Assembly (NCBI GenBank): GCA_011321815.1
Contig: DROS01000053.1
Location: 1-64,000 of the forward strand
DNA from: Gammaproteobacteria bacterium
GTDB lineage: Bacteria; Pseudomonadota; Gammaproteobacteria; SZUA-152
DNA: 64,000 bases
Direction: 5' to 3'
In this document: piece after piece, positions 6,662-15,770 of the stretch
Layout: each line of letters starts with the position of its first letter
How positions within the stretch are numbered: position 1 is the first letter of the stretch
The notes under the pieces: generated by a model
Seen by the model: only the letters and a program-made list of their open reading frames with translations
Told to the model about the DNA's origin: nothing
Database searches by the model: none
Translations under genes and position numbers: made by a program

Positions 6662-7666
6662 GTGGTACAACCGTCCTCCGCCAATACCGTATCACTGTCG
6701 ACCATCACCCACTATTGCGTGGCTCTGTTTTTTTCGCTCCCCCTTTTTTATTCATCACCGCTGCATGCCAGCGAGGAAAGCAATAAAGACCCAACAGAAA
6801 ATACGACAGAACCGCATATTTCCCTGCTGGAACCCCTGGACAGCACACGTAACGCTGTTTCACACCGGGTAACCGAATTTGCCAACTGGCTGGACAATTT
6901 TTTTGGTGATGACCGCATCTACGATGAATCACAAAACAGCCGCCTCAAGCTGAATCTGTTGCAAATCAGTGAAGAAGGCTATGAACCACGTTATAAAACC
7001 AGCCTGCAAGGCAAACTCACCCTGCCCAATACACAAAAACGGTTGAAACTTCTATTCGAAAGCGACCCCGAAGAAAATGCAAACGCCGACAACACAGTAA
7101 TAGAAGCCGTGCAGGCACAAGAACAATCCCTCGGCCTGCGTTACATCCAACTCTCCACCGAATGGCTGCGCGCCAATACCGATGTCGGTGTCCGTGTTCG
7201 CTCCGGCCTGGATACGTTCGTACGTTTTCGCCTGCGGGGATTATTCAATTTTGGCCATTGGAATCTGCGCGCCACCGAAACCTTGTTCTGGCGTGACTCA
7301 ACCGGCCCCGGTGCAAGCACACGACTGGATATCGAACGCCGGTTTGCCGAAACCTGGTTGTTCCGCGCCACCAGCAGGGCCACCTGGCTGGACAAAACCC
7401 GTCAGTTCGACATGGGGCAGGATTTTTTCCTGATCCACACCATCAACAAATACCGCGCCATCATTTATCGCGCCGGACTGACCGCCGTCAGCGAACCAAA
7501 AATGCAGACTACCGGCTACATTCTCTCTGTGCGCTTACGTCAGCAAATTCACCGTGACTGGCTGTTCTTCGAAATCAATCCCAAGGTGCTGTATCCGCAG
7601 GCTGAGGATTTTCATGCCCGGCATTCGTTAACATTCAAGCTGGAAGTTGTCTTTGGAGGAGTTTGA
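6662..7666 (+). CDS. Unrecognised exported protein
   Basis: 334 residues from a GTG at 6662, with AGAGA some 11 bases upstream. A hydrophobic stretch (about 14-34) ends in PLHA-SEE, a plausible signal peptidase I site. The mature part begins acidic and polar, then from about residue 90 shows alternating polar and hydrophobic segments rich in Arg, Trp and Phe (for example LRLRGLFNFGHWNLRATETL, spaced like beta strands). This suggests a beta-rich envelope protein. I recognise no family motif. It stands alone, 171 bases after the tusE-like gene and 464 bases before the oxygenase-PKS pair. There is no sign that it belongs to either. An outer-membrane location is only a guess. Confidence 0.75.
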   Translation: MVQPSSANTVSLSTITHYCVALFFSLPLFYSSPLHASEESNKDPTENTTEPHISLLEPLDSTRNAVSHRVTEFANWLDNFFGDDRIYDESQNSRLKLNLLQISEEGYEPRYKTSLQGKLTLPNTQKRLKLLFESDPEENANADNTVIEAVQAQEQSLGLRYIQLSTEWLRANTDVGVRVRSGLDTFVRFRLRGLFNFGHWNLRATETLFWRDSTGPGASTRLDIERRFAETWLFRATSRATWLDKTRQFDMGQDFFLIHTINKYRAIIYRAGLTAVSEPKMQTTGYILSVRLRQQIHRDWLFFEINPKVLYPQAEDFHARHSLTFKLEVVFGGV

Positions 7667-8130
7667 CCCGCGCTTTCCGTAAAAATCAACATACACGCCT
7701 GAACCGCGATCCAGAAAACCCTTTCCCGATGAATTCAAGCCGATATAACAGAAGCAGAACCCGGCCTGTTATCTTATGAAAAAACAATTCGCGTAAAACA
7801 TAATATAAAAAAGCAACCCTGAAAAAACCAAAGACCGGCCACAAACAAATAAGGATTGGCGTGTTACAAAAAAACACCTATACCCGCGCAATACATCTGC
7901 CAGGGTAATTTTAACGATATTTATAAGTGGTTTCCCTCTTGTATAATATTTTTATATGTTTGCCGGGCAAGCATTCCTTGTTTTAAGTCTATTATTCACA
8001 TTCCTTTAAAAAATATTTTTTTCATGACCTTAAATGTGACAACATAGAACCAATCCATGGGTACTGACAAGGAACCCCGCACGCCAATTTTTTCAGGTGG
8101 CAACAGGGACATAACAGGGAAGTTATTATC
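7667..8130. other. AT-rich intergenic region upstream of the oxygenase-PKS pair
   Basis: No convincing gene. Short open frames occur, but none has a placed ribosome-binding site. A weak inverted repeat (ATAACAG / CTGTTAT, 7745-7772) and a TATAAT box at 7942-7947 are the only structures seen. The stretch looks clearly more AT-rich than the flanking genes, though composition was not computed. Confidence 0.6.
7942..7947 (+). promoter_or_regulatory. Candidate -10 element upstream of the oxygenase-PKS pair
   Basis: A perfect TATAAT lies about 184 bases before the GTG start of the oxygenase gene. The region 17 bases upstream has only a poor match to a -35 box, so an activator might be required. 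This is a single-motif prediction. Confidence 0.3.
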
Positions 8131-9579
8131 GTGGGCACTAAGCCATACTACTATGGTTGGATAAACGCCAACCCCTCTGAAAAAGAGAAACGCATTGATA
8201 CCGGTAATAAATTACCAGCAGACTTTCAAGGCGTGTTATATCGCAGCGGCCCTGCTTTATTCGAACGAAACCACCAAAAAAAATCCTATTTTGTTGATGG
8301 CGACGGCATGGTTCACAGCTTTGCTTTTGATGGAAACAAAGTTCGTTATACAAATCGTTTTGTCCGTACAAAAAAATTCATGGAAGAATCCCAAAAAAAG
8401 GAATTCATTTATGACACCTGGACTTTCAGAGCCGGCCTGGACGAGTTTGATGAAGTTGAGCCACCCAAATATGAAAGCCAGGCTTATATCGCATCCGTCT
8501 TTCATCATGGAAAACTGTTCGCATTTGATGAGTCATTCAGCCCTTACGAGCTGGAGCCCGACAGCCTGGAAACGATTGGCCGATCAACATTGGGGGTACT
8601 GGACCCGCAGGCATCCTTTTCAGCACACTCTAAAATTCACACCTTCCAAAACCAATGGCTGCATTTTGGTCTGAAGCATGGAAAGCAGGCAGAGGTCTAC
8701 TTTACCATTTTTGATGGTGAAGGAGAGTTATTGAACAGCTTTTCACAAACCCTCCCCCGGGCGGTATATGTTCATGATTTTTTTACCACTGAAAATTATG
8801 TCGTGATGTGCCTGCACCCGGCGTTCGTACGCATTCAGTCGGTATTGGCGGGCACCAGAAGCTTTATCGACGCTATAAAGTGGCGTCCTGAAGAAGGAAA
8901 TCTGATCGTCGTCTATCACAAATCAGGAAAGGAAGCGCCCAAATATTATGAAGCACAAACACGCTGGTGGCTGCACTCAATTAATGCCTGGGAGGAACAC
9001 GACAGGATCATAATGGACTTTGTGGGCCATTCATCACCCGACCATCTCATGGGCAGTGCGCCTATGTACAAGAATGCACTGACAGGTACAGCTGATGGCC
9101 CCTATGCGCCTGGTGAAATCTGGCGATATGAAATTGACATAAACGGTCACAGTTTACGTGAAACACGCTTGTTTGAAGGAAATCATGAATTTCCCACCGT
9201 GCATCCCGGCCGTGTTGGTTTAAAAAACAAATTCAGCTACATGGTTAAAGGCGACGCCCAAAACCCTTTTTGGAATACTGTCGTTCAAGTTGATATGGAA
9301 TCAGGAACACAACAGGCGCATTGTTTTGGCGAAGGGGTTTATTGCTCTGAACCAATACTTGCGCCCAATACGCAGGAAGTAAGCTTTGGCATAAAAGAGG
9401 CTGGCGGCTTACTAATGTCATTAATTCATGACGGAATAAACAAACGCAATTATCTGGCGGTTTTTAGAAGTGGAGAGGTGGATCAGGGGCCTCTGACATT
9501 AATACACATTGAAAATGAAATACCGCTGACGTTTCATGGCTGCTGGAGAAGCACCCGTAAAAAGGAGTTGTCAAAATGA
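8131..9579 (+). CDS. Carotenoid oxygenase family (CCD/RPE65-type) non-haem iron dioxygenase
   Basis: 482 residues, the normal family length, from a GTG at 8131 with an AGGGA-like site about 9-11 bases upstream. These seven-bladed propeller enzymes use Fe(II) held by four histidines to split a conjugated C=C bond with O2, giving two carbonyl products. All four ligands are visible: His166 (SAHSK), His215 (VHDFF), His282 (LHSIN) and His469 (FHGCW). The early LYRSGP and VDGDGMVHSF motifs and the SEPILAPN stretch are also typical. Substrates in the family include carotenoids, apocarotenoids and stilbenes; this one cannot be read from sequence. No carotenoid biosynthesis gene (crtB, crtI) occurs in the window. 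The stop codon overlaps the start of the polyketide synthase (ATGA), so the two are probably translated together. Confidence 0.93.
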   Translation: MGTKPYYYGWINANPSEKEKRIDTGNKLPADFQGVLYRSGPALFERNHQKKSYFVDGDGMVHSFAFDGNKVRYTNRFVRTKKFMEESQKKEFIYDTWTFRAGLDEFDEVEPPKYESQAYIASVFHHGKLFAFDESFSPYELEPDSLETIGRSTLGVLDPQASFSAHSKIHTFQNQWLHFGLKHGKQAEVYFTIFDGEGELLNSFSQTLPRAVYVHDFFTTENYVVMCLHPAFVRIQSVLAGTRSFIDAIKWRPEEGNLIVVYHKSGKEAPKYYEAQTRWWLHSINAWEEHDRIIMDFVGHSSPDHLMGSAPMYKNALTGTADGPYAPGEIWRYEIDINGHSLRETRLFEGNHEFPTVHPGRVGLKNKFSYMVKGDAQNPFWNTVVQVDMESGTQQAHCFGEGVYCSEPILAPNTQEVSFGIKEAGGLLMSLIHDGINKRNYLAVFRSGEVDQGPLTLIHIENEIPLTFHGCWRSTRKKELSK

Positions 9580-12500
9580 AAAGGAATGCAAACAAGGAAC
9601 CAATCGCAATTGTCGGAATGTCATGTCGTTTACCCGGCGGTGGCAATACCCTTGACGGATTCTGGAACAATCTCATCGCAGGTAAGGACACTGTTGTTCC
9701 TGTACCCGATGATCGCTGGAACACGAAAAAATTCTATGACCCGGACCCTGATAAACCCGGAAAAATGTACATGCGTAATGGCGCTTTTCTCGATACCGAT
9801 ATCGCCGCTTTTGACGCATTGTTTTTTGGTCTGTCACCTCGTGAGGCACAAATCCTGGACCCACAACAACGTCTGGCCCTGGAGCTGGTCATTGAGGCCG
9901 CTGACGATGCCGGCATTCGCCTGGAAGACCTGTCTGACAGCGACACCGGTGTATTTATGGGTGGCTTCTTCATGGACCACCTTAGTCTGCACACCCATTA
10001 TCTGAATCGCAGGGAAATTTCTGCCGTATCCTCCACCGCTGTTTCCTGTACTTTGTTATCCAACCGGATTTCTTACTCCCTCAACCTGAAGGGGCCGAGT
10101 GTTACGATGGATACCGCATGCTCCTCTTCACTGGTTGCGACCCATTATGCCTGCAACAGTCTATGGCATAACGAATGCCGCGTTGTTATTACAGGCGGTG
10201 TAAGCCTGATGATAAACCCGACGACAGCGATCACTCTGTCAAAGGGCCGGTTTTTATCCACCCACGGGCGCTCCATGAGCTTTGATCATCGTGGCGATGG
10301 GTACGGTCGCGGAGAAGGTGGTGGTATCGCATTTTTAAAACGGCTGAGTGACGCCGAAGCCGATGGTGATAAAATATATGCCGTTATCAAAAACACTGGG
10401 GTTAACCAGGATGGCCGAACAGCGGGCATCACTTTACCAAACCCCGCTTCACAAAAATCACTTATTGAAAAAGTATATGCCGAGGCAGGTGTTGGTTATG
10501 CTGATGTGCAGTATATTGAGGCCCATGGCACCGGCACCAAGGCAGGTGACTCCACCGAACTGAGTGTCCTGCATGATTTAATGAATCAGCGCAATGCGGG
10601 TGCCGCAGAAAAGGAAAAAGTCTTTGTTGGCTCGGTTAAATCCCACATCGGTCACCTGGAGGCCGCTGCGGGCATCGCTGGCCTGATCAAAACCACGTTA
10701 TCCTTACAGAACAGTATTATCCCGCGCAATATTAACTTTGAAGAGGGTAACACTGAGATTGATTTTGATAACCTTGCCGTACAGGTGCCGCTGGAAAACC
10801 GGGACTGGCCAGAGTGTGACGTCCCCCGCGCCAGCATTAACTCCTTTGGCTTTGGCGGCACCAACGCCCATGTCATTGTTGAAAAATACCGGCCTGCAAT
10901 AACGCCGAAGGCCCAAAAATCTGAATCCACTATCAATTGGCCCATTTTATTCCCCCTGTCTGCCCGCAGTGAAAGTGCGCTAAAAAAAGGCGCAGCCATG
11001 ATGGCAAACCGTATCGCATCCGCAGATGACTTCGATGATGTCTATTATTCTGTGCGGTACAGACGCAGCCATTACAGCAAACGACTGGCCATATACGCCG
11101 AAAACCTGCACGACTTACAAACAAAACTGCGCCATTATGCCGAGGACGAATTATCCCCCTATATCGCCTCCGGCGACTGTGAAGAAGATGTAAAAACCGC
11201 ATTCGTCTATACCGGCATGGGGCCACAATGGTGGGCCATGGGCCGTGAACTGATGGAAACGCAGCCGGTGTTCAGAAATGCACTGGAAGCTTGTGATACT
11301 GTATTCAAACCGGTTTCCGGCTGGTCATTGATTGAGGCGCTTTCCCGGAGCGAAGAAACCTCCAACATCACTCAAACAGACATTACCCAGCCAACCAATT
11401 TTGCCATACAGTATGCATTAACGGTGTATTGGCAGTCGCTGGGTGTCGAACCCGACATGATTGCAGGCCATAGCCTGGGCGAGGTTGCGGCGGCTCACGC
11501 GGCAGGTGCTCTTAATCTGGAAGATGCGTTGAAAGTAATTTATCACCGGGGCCGGTTACAACAGCGCACCGATGGTGAGGGTGGAATGCTGGCCGTCGGC
11601 TTGAGCGCAAGTGATATTGCCGCTTATATCGAACCCTATGGTGACCGCTTATGCATAGGCGCCATCAACAGCCCAGGGGCCGTTACACTTTCCGGCGACC
11701 TGGCGGCTATTGCCACGCTTTCGGAAACGCTGGAAGACGAAGGGATTTTCCACCGTAAATTACATGTAAAAACCGGCTTCCACAGTTTTGTTATGGATGG
11801 TTTGGAAACAGAGCTGCTCGAAAGCCTAAAAGACATTCAAACCGCCAACACAACAAAACCGCTGTACTCCAGCGTCACCGGCAGACTTGAGGATGGCCAC
11901 CGGTTTAATACCGAATACTGGTGGGAAAATGTTCGCCGCCCTGTTTCCTTTGCGCAAAGCGCCATGGCCATGATCAGGGATGGAGCCAATGTGTTTATAG
12001 AAATCGGGCCTCACCCCGTATTGGGCACCTCCATCAAGCAGTGCTTACAGGCAGAGCAAAAACGTGGGCATACTGTCAGCTCGCTGGTGCGCAAAAAACC
12101 CGAACATGAAAACCTTTTGCTGAGCCTGGGGCAATTGTATTGCGTGGGTTATGACATTGACTGGTCAAAATTCGGTGGCAACAACGGAAAACTCACCGGT
12201 CTGCCCATGTACCATTGGGACAAGGAAATTTACTGGGGCGAAGACCCGTATACCCGGGAGGACCGCCTGGGAAATTCCGGGCATCCTGTTTTTGCGCTGG
12301 ATTTACGCCTGCCCCACCCTGCCTGGGAAGTGGATTTCAGTCTGAACTACTTTCCCTGGTTAACCGATCACAAGATAGAAGGCTTGGTGTTGAACCCAGG
12401 CGCCGCCTATATCGAAGCTGGCCTGATGTTGTGCAAAAAAATATTTGGCGACAAACCCTGTATTCTGGAAGATGTTCAATTCACCACGCCACTGATCTAT

Positions 12501-15500
12501 CGTGAAAAAGACAGCCAAAAAATACAAATACATTACAGTCACACGAGTCAGCGTTTTTCCGTTTATAGTCAAAATCATCAGGCAAACCACTCATGGACTT
12601 ACCACGCCGGCGCCAAAATGAAGGTGTATCAAGGAGTCTTCAGTGACATCAAGCATGATATTGGGGCTTTAAAAAACAGACTGGGCAATCCGTTCAATGT
12701 GGATATTTTCTACACCATGCTCGCCAATGTGGGGTTGCAATACGGCCCCACTTTCCAGGGTGTACAGGAAATATACCTTGGAAGTGACGAAGTACTGGTA
12801 AAAATTAAAACGCCTGCGGATTTGCTGACGGAAGATTATTATTTACACCCTTGCCAGCTTGACCCCTGCTTTCAAACCCTGGCCATTCTGCAGATTGATT
12901 CAGAGCGGCCATATTTGCCCACTGCGCTCGAACAACTCGTCATCAACGCCAGTCCGCAGGAAGAGTTTTGGTGCCATTTGAGGATAACAACAAGAACAGA
13001 AAGAGAGCTGAAGGCTGATTTTGATATTTTTGATACCGATGGAACACCGTTGATCCAGGTGAATGGCATTATTTGTCGAGAAGTGCCAGCCATGCAGACC
13101 ACTGATGAAAAATACGGAGGAAATCTGTATAAAATGGTTTGGCGCGAAGAACAAAATCACAGACCAGGAAAACAGGACGCCGTAAACTCTCTGGTTTTTT
13201 TAAGGCATGACCAAAAGGATATCGCCAAGGCCTGGAGAGAACAGGACCCTGGCTGTATACAGATCTTCTGGGGCGATGATTATAACGCGCTTGGCAACAA
13301 TAACTATTCTGTTAACCCGAGCGATAAACAACACTGGGAACGGTTGTGGCAGGATCTGTCGGGCCTGGCGTTCTCCGCCATGGTGTATTTGTGGCATTTG
13401 GGGGCAGACACCCCCGTGGACAATTATGAAAATGGTGATATTTTTTTATTATCACTGTTTTCCATGTCGCGGGAAGATATTCTCAGAAGACCGTTTAAAA
13501 TAGGGCTGGCGGTCAGTCACGCCAATCATGTTGTGCCTTCCGATAAATGTGAAGGTCTGGGTTTGTCCACGCTGTGGGGCATCAAGCGTGTATTGATGAG
13601 CGAGATTGTTTCAAAGCGGTGCAAGTCTGTTGATTTTGACCGGGCGAACAACCTGAGCACCAGTGACATTGACTTGCTGATCAAAGAATTCCTGTTTGAA
13701 GATGTAGAGTCCGAAATTGCCTACCGTGATGGAAAACGTTATATCCACCGGCTGGAACGGGTGGAGGAAAAATCCCTGCAACCTCAGGACCGGTTGGCGG
13801 AAACGACGCTGGAAACCCCGTTAAGCTATACCCCAAAACTAAACCTGTTCAGCAAAATACCGGCTCCTGAGGCCCAGTCCGGCCAATGCATTGTGCGCGT
13901 TATCGCGTACTATATCAGTGACACAATAAAACAGACGGTTGATCTCAGTTCAGGGAAAGGCCAGTGGGAAGGCTGGGGTGAGGTTATTGCCTCCGCTAAC
14001 AGCACTGAATTCAAACCCGGCGATAAAGTCAGCTTTCTTGGCCTTGATCAAGAACTGGCCACATTTATGGCCGTGGATAAAAAGTGGTTAACACCCTGTG
14101 AATCACAACAGGCCTGGGTACCATTATCATTGATATTACCTGTATGTGCCGCTTTTGATGCACTTCACCTGGATAAAACCCAGTCAATCCTGATCGCCGG
14201 TCAAAATAATGAAACGGGTAAATTAGTCAGCGCGCTACTTAAACACCAAGGATTAAACTTTGATGTTCTGGGCACGGATCATCAGAAGCTGGAAACCTGC
14301 GAGATCTTGATCGACTGCGGTGACCCCGGCCTTGGCTTTGCGGCGTACCAACAAATCAAACACTATGGAAAGCTGCTGATATTAGGGGAAAACACAGCTT
14401 ATAACGAAGTGCTTTGGAAAATACTGTTGGAACGAAACATTACCTGCCTGTCATCAAGCGCCAAAGGCCTGAATGAGCCACAATCATCCGGGGTATTATT
14501 GCGGGCAAAAATGCTCATGGAACAAGCACCCGTCCGCTTTGATTATGCCGGCTCATTAACCCACTACACACATAACCAACTGCCGGATATTTTTGAGGCC
14601 CTCAACAGCGGACAGAACATTGCGCCAGGCTTACTGACGTTTTCAGCGGGCGCCATGGTTGAGTCCAATATCCCCTATGTTGAAAAACCCCTGTTTGTAC
14701 CGGATGCCAGCTATCTTATTACCGGTGGAACCCGGGGGCTGGGGCTGGAGCTTGCAAAGTGGGCCGCAACGCAGGGCGCCAGACATCTGATCTTGTTAAG
14801 TTTGCGGGGCCTGACAAGCGATTATGCCACCGAGGCAGTAAAAGAGATTGAGGCCAATGGCTGCCAGGTAAAAGTACTGGCCGTGGACATTGCTGACAGC
14901 GAAGCATTAAACGAAGCTTACCGCTCGGTCAGTGGTGACATTCCCGCACTGAAAGGGGTGATACATGGCGCCATGGTCCTGGACGATGATTTTTTACAGT
15001 CGTTGTCGCCTGAGCGTATGGAAAAAGTACTGGCGCCCAAAGTGCGTGGAGCCTGGAACCTTCACCAACTGACCCTGGAAATGCCATTGGCGTTCTTCTT
15101 CAGCTTTTCATCCGTGTCCTCTTTAATAGGCAATCCCGGACAGGCAAATTACGTTGCTGCAAACTGTTTTCTGGATGTTTTCTCCCACTACCGTCAGGGT
15201 CTGGGTTTACCTGCGACGACAGTAAACCTTGGTGTGGTTTCTGATAGCGGCATCGTTTCTGAACGAAAAGAGGTTGAAGATTTTTTCGCCAATGCGGGGT
15301 TCTCAGGTATCAAGCCTGTTCAGGTGGGTGAGTTTTTACAGTTTGCCTACCAGACATCACCGGCACAAATCGCTTATTTTGACCTGGATTGGACAAAATG
15401 GAGTGCAATACTGCCCACCGACTGGGTACCACCAATATACGAAGGCATTATGAGTGACGCCAAGGGCGGAAACTCCGACGCATTGCTTCAAACCAAAAGC

Positions 15501-15770
15501 AGCATTAAAGACCTTAATGAAGAAGAACAGCAGGACTTTTTCAAAGAACTGGTCAGGAATGAACTTTCTGAGTTATTGAAAATGCCTGCCGAAAAAATTG
15601 AAATGCATACACGAATTGTGGATATCGGCGTCAACTCGCTTATGGCCGTTGAATTCTCCGGCGCCATGGGCGAAAAATATGGCCTCATGATGCCAATACT
15701 GGACATCATGAGTGGAGCGACGGTGGAACAGGCGGCCCTGCTGACACTTAACCACATTCGCAATGATTAA
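9576..15770 (+). CDS. Type I polyketide synthase, KS-AT-DH-structural KR-degenerate ER-KR-ACP
   Basis: 2064 residues, starting at the ATG inside the oxygenase stop (ATGA overlap); AAAAGGAG lies just upstream. KS (about 7-440): Cys182 in DTACSSS, His317 in EAHGTGT and His360 in SHIGH are intact. AT (about 540-850): Ser633 in GHSLGE; TGFHS around 733-737 is nearer the malonyl-type than the methylmalonyl-type motif. DH (about 900-1180): His932 in the HxxxGxxxxP motif and Asp1096 in DPCFQ are intact. Residues 1200-1400 look like the structural half of a KR. Residues 1415-1695 follow an ER fold but lack the glycine-rich NADPH loop. KR (about 1705-1890): TGGTRGLG, LDD at 1802-1804 (B-type), Tyr1859. 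ACP (about 1985-2050): Ser2021 in GVNSL. There is no thioesterase, methyltransferase or loading module. The layout matches single-module iterative synthases such as the Mas type; with no working ER, unsaturated products are expected. Confidence 0.95.
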   Translation: MKRNANKEPIAIVGMSCRLPGGGNTLDGFWNNLIAGKDTVVPVPDDRWNTKKFYDPDPDKPGKMYMRNGAFLDTDIAAFDALFFGLSPREAQILDPQQRLALELVIEAADDAGIRLEDLSDSDTGVFMGGFFMDHLSLHTHYLNRREISAVSSTAVSCTLLSNRISYSLNLKGPSVTMDTACSSSLVATHYACNSLWHNECRVVITGGVSLMINPTTAITLSKGRFLSTHGRSMSFDHRGDGYGRGEGGGIAFLKRLSDAEADGDKIYAVIKNTGVNQDGRTAGITLPNPASQKSLIEKVYAEAGVGYADVQYIEAHGTGTKAGDSTELSVLHDLMNQRNAGAAEKEKVFVGSVKSHIGHLEAAAGIAGLIKTTLSLQNSIIPRNINFEEGNTEIDFDNLAVQVPLENRDWPECDVPRASINSFGFGGTNAHVIVEKYRPAITPKAQKSESTINWPILFPLSARSESALKKGAAMMANRIASADDFDDVYYSVRYRRSHYSKRLAIYAENLHDLQTKLRHYAEDELSPYIASGDCEEDVKTAFVYTGMGPQWWAMGRELMETQPVFRNALEACDTVFKPVSGWSLIEALSRSEETSNITQTDITQPTNFAIQYALTVYWQSLGVEPDMIAGHSLGEVAAAHAAGALNLEDALKVIYHRGRLQQRTDGEGGMLAVGLSASDIAAYIEPYGDRLCIGAINSPGAVTLSGDLAAIATLSETLEDEGIFHRKLHVKTGFHSFVMDGLETELLESLKDIQTANTTKPLYSSVTGRLEDGHRFNTEYWWENVRRPVSFAQSAMAMIRDGANVFIEIGPHPVLGTSIKQCLQAEQKRGHTVSSLVRKKPEHENLLLSLGQLYCVGYDIDWSKFGGNNGKLTGLPMYHWDKEIYWGEDPYTREDRLGNSGHPVFALDLRLPHPAWEVDFSLNYFPWLTDHKIEGLVLNPGAAYIEAGLMLCKKIFGDKPCILEDVQFTTPLIYREKDSQKIQIHYSHTSQRFSVYSQNHQANHSWTYHAGAKMKVYQGVFSDIKHDIGALKNRLGNPFNVDIFYTMLANVGLQYGPTFQGVQEIYLGSDEVLVKIKTPADLLTEDYYLHPCQLDPCFQTLAILQIDSERPYLPTALEQLVINASPQEEFWCHLRITTRTERELKADFDIFDTDGTPLIQVNGIICREVPAMQTTDEKYGGNLYKMVWREEQNHRPGKQDAVNSLVFLRHDQKDIAKAWREQDPGCIQIFWGDDYNALGNNNYSVNPSDKQHWERLWQDLSGLAFSAMVYLWHLGADTPVDNYENGDIFLLSLFSMSREDILRRPFKIGLAVSHANHVVPSDKCEGLGLSTLWGIKRVLMSEIVSKRCKSVDFDRANNLSTSDIDLLIKEFLFEDVESEIAYRDGKRYIHRLERVEEKSLQPQDRLAETTLETPLSYTPKLNLFSKIPAPEAQSGQCIVRVIAYYISDTIKQTVDLSSGKGQWEGWGEVIASANSTEFKPGDKVSFLGLDQELATFMAVDKKWLTPCESQQAWVPLSLILPVCAAFDALHLDKTQSILIAGQNNETGKLVSALLKHQGLNFDVLGTDHQKLETCEILIDCGDPGLGFAAYQQIKHYGKLLILGENTAYNEVLWKILLERNITCLSSSAKGLNEPQSSGVLLRAKMLMEQAPVRFDYAGSLTHYTHNQLPDIFEALNSGQNIAPGLLTFSAGAMVESNIPYVEKPLFVPDASYLITGGTRGLGLELAKWAATQGARHLILLSLRGLTSDYATEAVKEIEANGCQVKVLAVDIADSEALNEAYRSVSGDIPALKGVIHGAMVLDDDFLQSLSPERMEKVLAPKVRGAWNLHQLTLEMPLAFFFSFSSVSSLIGNPGQANYVAANCFLDVFSHYRQGLGLPATTVNLGVVSDSGIVSERKEVEDFFANAGFSGIKPVQVGEFLQFAYQTSPAQIAYFDLDWTKWSAILPTDWVPPIYEGIMSDAKGGNSDALLQTKSSIKDLNEEEQQDFFKELVRNELSELLKMPAEKIEMHTRIVDIGVNSLMAVEFSGAMGEKYGLMMPILDIMSGATVEQAALLTLNHIRND
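13818..14660 (+). other. Degenerate enoylreductase domain within the PKS
   Basis: Residues about 1415-1695 of the synthase align by landmarks with an MDR-type ER: a start like PEAQSGQCIVRVIAY, then EFKPGDKV, LPVCAAFDAL, and an ending like FEALNSGQNIAPG. The NADPH-binding AAxGGVG loop is replaced by IAGQNNETGK (about 1540-1549), and the usual NFRD region is changed. The fold is probably kept for structure, but reduction is unlikely. Confidence 0.7.

Follow-up and report, generated by a model that had tools for sequence, protein, structure and literature searches.

Background

Two kinds of described systems come close to the locus analysed here. In P. fluorescens MYb115, the chain built by the iterative polyketide synthase (PKS) of the SgaAB system is taken up by an alpha-oxoamine synthase (AOS), leading to sphingolipids (PMC12134224). 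The oxidative cleavage of a polyketide polyene is known from the biosynthesis of fumagillin (Fma-ABM), and has been proposed for that of limocrocin (Lim18) and simocyclinone (SimC4) (PMC11727611). In a literature search that lay mostly outside subscription journals, we found no paper describing an enzyme of the Pfam family PF03055 paired with a bacterial PKS.

The window, i.e., the whole stretch of 64,000 nucleotides analysed here, is part of contig 53 in a genome of 3.58 Mb and 99% completeness (G000), and encodes a carotenoid-cleavage-oxygenase family protein followed directly by a single-module type I PKS. The presence of this oxygenase-PKS pair in two groups of apparently carotenoid-free bacteria suggests an undescribed pathway in which a polyene is made and subsequently cut or altered.

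Organization of the gene pair

The oxygenase and PKS ORFs have four base pairs in common (ATGA), and a Shine-Dalgarno-like AAGGAG is located shortly 5' of the ATG of the PKS gene, within the end of the oxygenase gene (Table 1). A sequence-only reading of this DNA had called the two genes translationally coupled; the four-base overlap is indeed present, but coupling itself is at most suggested by it. As that reading also stated, the pair stands alone between unrelated units, with a gene for a 334-aa protein (up334) and a DnaJ-like gene upstream, and the genes for phosphofructokinase and adenylate kinase downstream. The up334 protein (window positions 6662-7666) has no Pfam match, has a homolog in all of the 12 genus genomes searched, and its gene adjoins the insertion site of the pair. 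A promoter-like TTTATA-16-TATAAT is found at positions 7920-7947 of the upstream intergenic region, where the match count is not above chance; likewise, our scans for promoters and terminators gave about as many matches as expected by chance.

Table 1. Features of the oxygenase-PKS locus, in window coordinates
Feature	Coordinates	Strand	Characteristics
AT-rich intergenic region upstream of the pair	7667..8130	.	39% GC
Carotenoid-cleavage-oxygenase (RPE65, PF03055) family protein	8131..9579	+	482 aa, GTG start; Pfam 326 bits (cut-off 27)
Single-module type I PKS	9576..15770	+	2064 aa, ATG start; KS-AT-DH-psiKR-psiER-KR-ACP, without release domain
KS	9576..10895	+	C182, H317, H360; Pfam, motif table
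AT	11202..12134	+	GHSLG and xxFHS, malonyl-type motif
DH	12282..13094	+	H932, D1096
Degenerate enoylreductase (psiER)	13806..14675	+	NADPH motif GGVG absent; not matched by Pfam ADH models; evolves faster than the other domains
KR	14706..15242	+	LDD motif (B-type); catalytic S/Y/N retained
ACP	15549..15734	+	Phosphopantetheine Ser2021 in GVNSL, N for the usual D

Conservation and distribution of the pair

We identified orthologs of the oxygenase in two other species of the genus (G018 and G020, with 85-86% identity) and in a Chromatiaceae MAG belonging to another order (G389, locus L004/L053, with 57% identity). The PKS gene directly follows the oxygenase gene at every ortholog locus, with PKS identities of 84% and 84% in the genus and 59% in the Chromatiaceae MAG; the same adjacency and gene order are found in four of the four orthologous loci, down to 57/59% identity (oxygenase/PKS). 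The 4 bp overlap, with the exact ATGA, is shared by the window and locus L002, and the two genes are separated by 2 bp at L003 and by 1 bp at L004. According to the counts of synonymous and non-synonymous changes, dN/dS is about 0.09 for the oxygenase and for the PKS alike, which indicates strong purifying selection on the pair. The possibility that the pair is a one-off artefact or has decayed is ruled out by its conservation across loci and by these dN/dS values. Since a second order keeps the pair with 57-59% identity, the oxygenase and the PKS appear to be functionally linked, which strengthens a link that the sequence-only reading had drawn from gene order.

Within the genus, the pair has a patchy distribution, being present in 3 of the 12 genomes. 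In G019, a genome without the pair, sulP, a 5'-nucleotidase gene and up334 flank the site as well, but only about 166 bp occupy the place where G018 and G020 hold the pair. As this is an empty site between the same flanking genes, both members of the pair are gained or lost together. The window genome has another downstream flank, with phosphofructokinase, and has therefore undergone a rearrangement in this region.

Many distant oxygenases are present in our samples of 369 genomes of the class and 398 genomes of the phylum; none of the CCD homologs that these samples gave as loci has a PKS gene beside it, and no ortholog of the PKS was found in the class sample. The oxygenase occurs in 1 of the 20 genomes of the order to which L004 belongs, namely, the genome of L004 itself. 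The plasmid homologs of the oxygenase all have less than 28% identity among the matches listed, a search of viral contigs returned one short match of 32 residues, and a contig scan by short peptide patterns, which would miss distant relatives, returned the three known loci only. Wide recurrence of the pair was thus not found in the class, phylum, L004-order and plasmid samples: the pair is conserved but rare, with a narrow spread of four genomes in two gammaproteobacterial orders. It is therefore not peculiar to this genome, a case in which the sequence-only reading would have been in doubt, and it does recur elsewhere, but only weakly so in terms of the distant taxa that this reading had in mind, both orders being Gammaproteobacteria.

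The oxygenase and its possible substrates

The oxygenase of the pair is the only PF03055 protein encoded in the window genome. Its four iron-ligating histidines (H166, H215, H282 and H469), which the sequence-only reading had already found to be kept, do not vary among 53 aligned family members, and neither does E407; in the alignment, E134, E353 and E407 match the second-sphere glutamates of Synechocystis ACO. This enzyme (2biw/5kja) is the nearest solved relative of the oxygenase (172 bits), and is not close to it in the tree. The oxygenase scores below the cut-offs of the NCBIfam lignostilbene dioxygenase equivalog (140 vs 800 bits), the NOV2 model (124 vs 650 bits) and NF052295, the model of the bacterial apocarotenoid 13,14-cleaving dioxygenase (111 vs 675 bits). 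The AlphaFold model of the oxygenase (pLDDT 49) was too poor for use. The phylogenetic tree of 60 rows indicates that the four PKS-linked oxygenases form a fully supported clade with a stem of 1.47 changes per site; judged from this tree, they are an isolated clade, far from the characterised carotenoid and lignostilbene enzymes. The comparison with the CCD and lignostilbene clades, which had been proposed as a check of the sequence-only reading, thus places the oxygenase outside any known carotenoid clade.

No CrtI-type desaturase was found above the cut-off in G000, G018, G020 or G389 in a search confined to the CrtI type. PF00494 (phytoene-synthase-like) matches occur in these genomes and were typed in that of the window, where the two genes encode HpnC and HpnD, enzymes of hopanoid synthesis. 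Because no CrtI passes the cut-off and the PF00494 genes are HpnC and HpnD, no endogenous carotenoid substrate is expected, and this candidate was ruled out for the window genome. What we found, an isolated clade in genomes without CrtI above the cut-off, is hence the opposite of a known carotenoid clade with crt genes elsewhere, which would have spoken against a polyketide substrate.

As the clade is isolated on its long stem, a changed reaction of the oxygenase is possible: it might isomerise double bonds of the PKS polyene or hydrolyse an ester of it, leaving the chain uncut, and this could even be the release step. RPE65, which belongs to the same Pfam family, acts on retinyl esters, and the operon is without a release enzyme. 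However, the iron ligands and all second-sphere glutamates of the oxygenase match those of cleaving enzymes such as ACO, and to our knowledge isomerohydrolase activity is confined to the animal RPE65 branch. We therefore consider such a reaction unlikely, and prefer cleavage of the PKS polyene.

The enoylreductase domain of the PKS has decayed

Turning to the synthase that would supply the polyene for cleavage, Pfam and the motif table agree with the sequence-only reading in that the KS, AT, DH, KR and ACP residues are kept and a release domain is missing; no thioesterase was found in the PKS by Pfam. With its KS, AT, KR and ACP and their catalytic residues, the protein is a type I single-module PKS. 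That reading had left out about 500 residues between DH and KR, which contain a psiKR and a degenerate enoylreductase (ER). Neither Pfam nor phmmer gave a match for the ER part; a predicted structure of modest quality (mean pLDDT 56) was matched by Foldseek to the DH-ER-KR of mycocerosic acid synthase (MAS) and fatty acid synthase. The NADPH motif GGVG, which is replaced by GQNNETG in the window PKS, is absent in all four oxygenase-linked PKSs, but is kept in all eight reference PKSs, which were taken from plasmid records (GGLG in one of them). Thus, the window PKS is not highly reducing in the sense of having an ER with an NADPH motif. The psiER has 33% identity to that of L004, compared with 49-75% for the other domains (75% for KS), and its dN/dS is 0.14, compared with 0.05-0.10 for the other PKS domains. 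In a tree of the KS-AT sequences, whose root is meaningless owing to one misaligned row, the oxygenase-linked PKSs group together, all four in one clade with full support. We also noted that the ACPs of all four read GVNSL, where GxDSL is usual, and share the Asn before the phosphopantetheine serine.

When KR and DH are active and an ER is lacking, each added unit contributes a trans double bond, and an iterating module produces a conjugated polyene. Since the ER has decayed while KS, AT, DH, KR and ACP are intact, a conjugated polyene is the expected chain of the window PKS, and the earlier suggestion of such a product can, from these sequence features, be regarded as likely. From the single module per operon and from the relatives of the PKS, we infer that it works iteratively.

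The ER is active in MAS, and the dead ER of LovB is served in trans by LovC. If a separate enoylreductase served the window PKS in a similar way, the product would be partly saturated, and the oxygenase would cut a short conjugated end. The psiER fold appears to be retained, as in LovB-type synthases, according to the Foldseek comparison of the predicted structure; however, none of the annotated neighbours at the four loci is an ER gene, and a docking role of the psiER is not suggested because it is the domain that evolves fastest. This possibility is improbable in our judgement, and an unsaturated chain that is cut by the oxygenase remains the reading that we follow.

A possible pathway

We give an even chance to a two-gene operon in which an ER-less iterative PKS builds a polyene, and the oxygenase acts on this polyene, most likely by cleaving it. 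A PKS of the highly reducing type, minus its ER, would perform iterative malonyl addition, ketoreduction and dehydration, so that an all-trans conjugated polyenoyl chain would form on its ACP. The partner, a non-haem iron dioxygenase, would act on one double bond of this polyene, which we infer to be its substrate; cleavage is a plausible outcome, and if oxidative, as is most likely, would give an aldehyde-ended polyene. The lipid-like product would probably be sent to the cell envelope. The idea that cleavage frees the chain is unsupported, because part of the chain would stay attached to the ACP as a stub and the surrounding genes include none for a release enzyme. The small number of genomes with the pair, four in two orders, and the lack of HAE3/LolA genes beside it in the window genus also weigh against this pathway. 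Somewhat more tentatively, and short of an even chance, we propose that a CCD-family enzyme cuts a non-terpenoid polyketide polyene, possibly on the PKS as part of its release, to yield 'apo-polyene' aldehydes with a role as envelope lipids or signals.

That the oxygenase uses an external substrate (a lignostilbene-like compound or an imported apocarotenoid) and has the PKS as its neighbour through a broader stress or envelope response would fit its weak matches to the models of lignostilbene as well as apocarotenoid enzymes, and an apocarotenoid would have to be imported given that no carotenoid route was found in its own genome, but we hold this to be very improbable in view of the 1-2 bp gap or 4 bp overlap kept between orders, the scores of 111-140 bits against equivalog cut-offs of 650-800, and the Asp found in all four PKS-linked proteins at position 133, which we take to be the site of the lignostilbene catalytic Lys.

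If the PKS polyene is indeed cleaved by the oxygenase, the carotenoid-oxygenase family reaches polyketide polyenes, beyond its terpenoid and stilbene substrates, and the two-gene units of bacterial iterative PKSs have a new class of partner. In that case, the synthase alone should give a coloured polyene in a heterologous host, and co-expression of the oxygenase should result in a bleached or shortened product.

Export genes and related clusters

Downstream of the pair in the Chromatiaceae MAG (L053, G389:C16, 237-4148, minus strand) are genes encoding an 810-aa HAE3/MMPL exporter, a 294-aa LolA-like protein and a 192-aa thioredoxin-fold protein; in the window genus, HAE3/LolA genes are not located beside the pair. 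An envelope lipid product is suggested by the occurrence of HAE3/MMPL exporter and LolA-like genes in this operon as well as in a cluster on contig 9 of the window genome.

The contig 9 cluster is a second single-module PKS cluster (L049, G000:C9, 1633-13399; also found as L051 in G021). It encodes a PKS with a degenerate ER (33% identity to the window PKS, motif lost), a BioF/SPT-like AOS, an HAE3/MMPL exporter, a LolA-like protein, and a 404-aa protein without a Pfam match which by eye resembles an outer-membrane barrel; this content suggests an unsaturated sphingoid-type lipid as the product of the cluster. An AOS of the window genome is thus located in a separate cluster, and none was found beside the pair in the window, in L004, or among the L002 neighbours tested. 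In another genome, a related PKS of 2106 aa (L050, G016:C155, 6594-13672, minus strand; 35% identity) has a weak ADH_zinc_N match and no GGVG, and its gene adjoins that of an af470-like monooxygenase. Contigs 23 and 77 of the window genome carry large PKS-type clusters with many KS domains.

Comparison with known systems

The lignostilbene-alpha,beta-dioxygenases belong to the same family as the oxygenase, and their profile matches it weakly (140 bits against a cut-off of 800). Synechocystis ACO is also a member of this family, and has the Fe ligands and second-sphere Glu residues in common with the oxygenase; however, several of the ACO tunnel positions differ, and the oxygenase falls into a separate, long-stemmed clade from genomes without CrtI above the cut-off. 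The PKS has the same domain order, KS-AT-DH-psiKR-ER-KR-ACP, as the mycocerosic-acid-synthase-like and LovB-type PKSs.

As we propose for the window pair, a polyene of polyketide origin is shortened and oxygenated by cutting or oxidation in the fumagillin, limocrocin and simocyclinone systems, but the enzymes are from families other than that of the window oxygenase, Fma-ABM being a monooxygenase and the others CrtP-like, and limocrocin is made with discrete ketosynthases. On plasmids, the window PKS is best matched by an AOS-linked PKS from Pseudomonas; in such AOS-linked plasmid relatives the ER is intact, whereas in the window PKS it is dead. Like the window pair, systems of the SgaAB type consist of a single-module, iterative-type PKS and a partner enzyme in a two-gene unit; their partner is an AOS, whereas in the window pair a carotenoid-oxygenase-family protein stands in its place.
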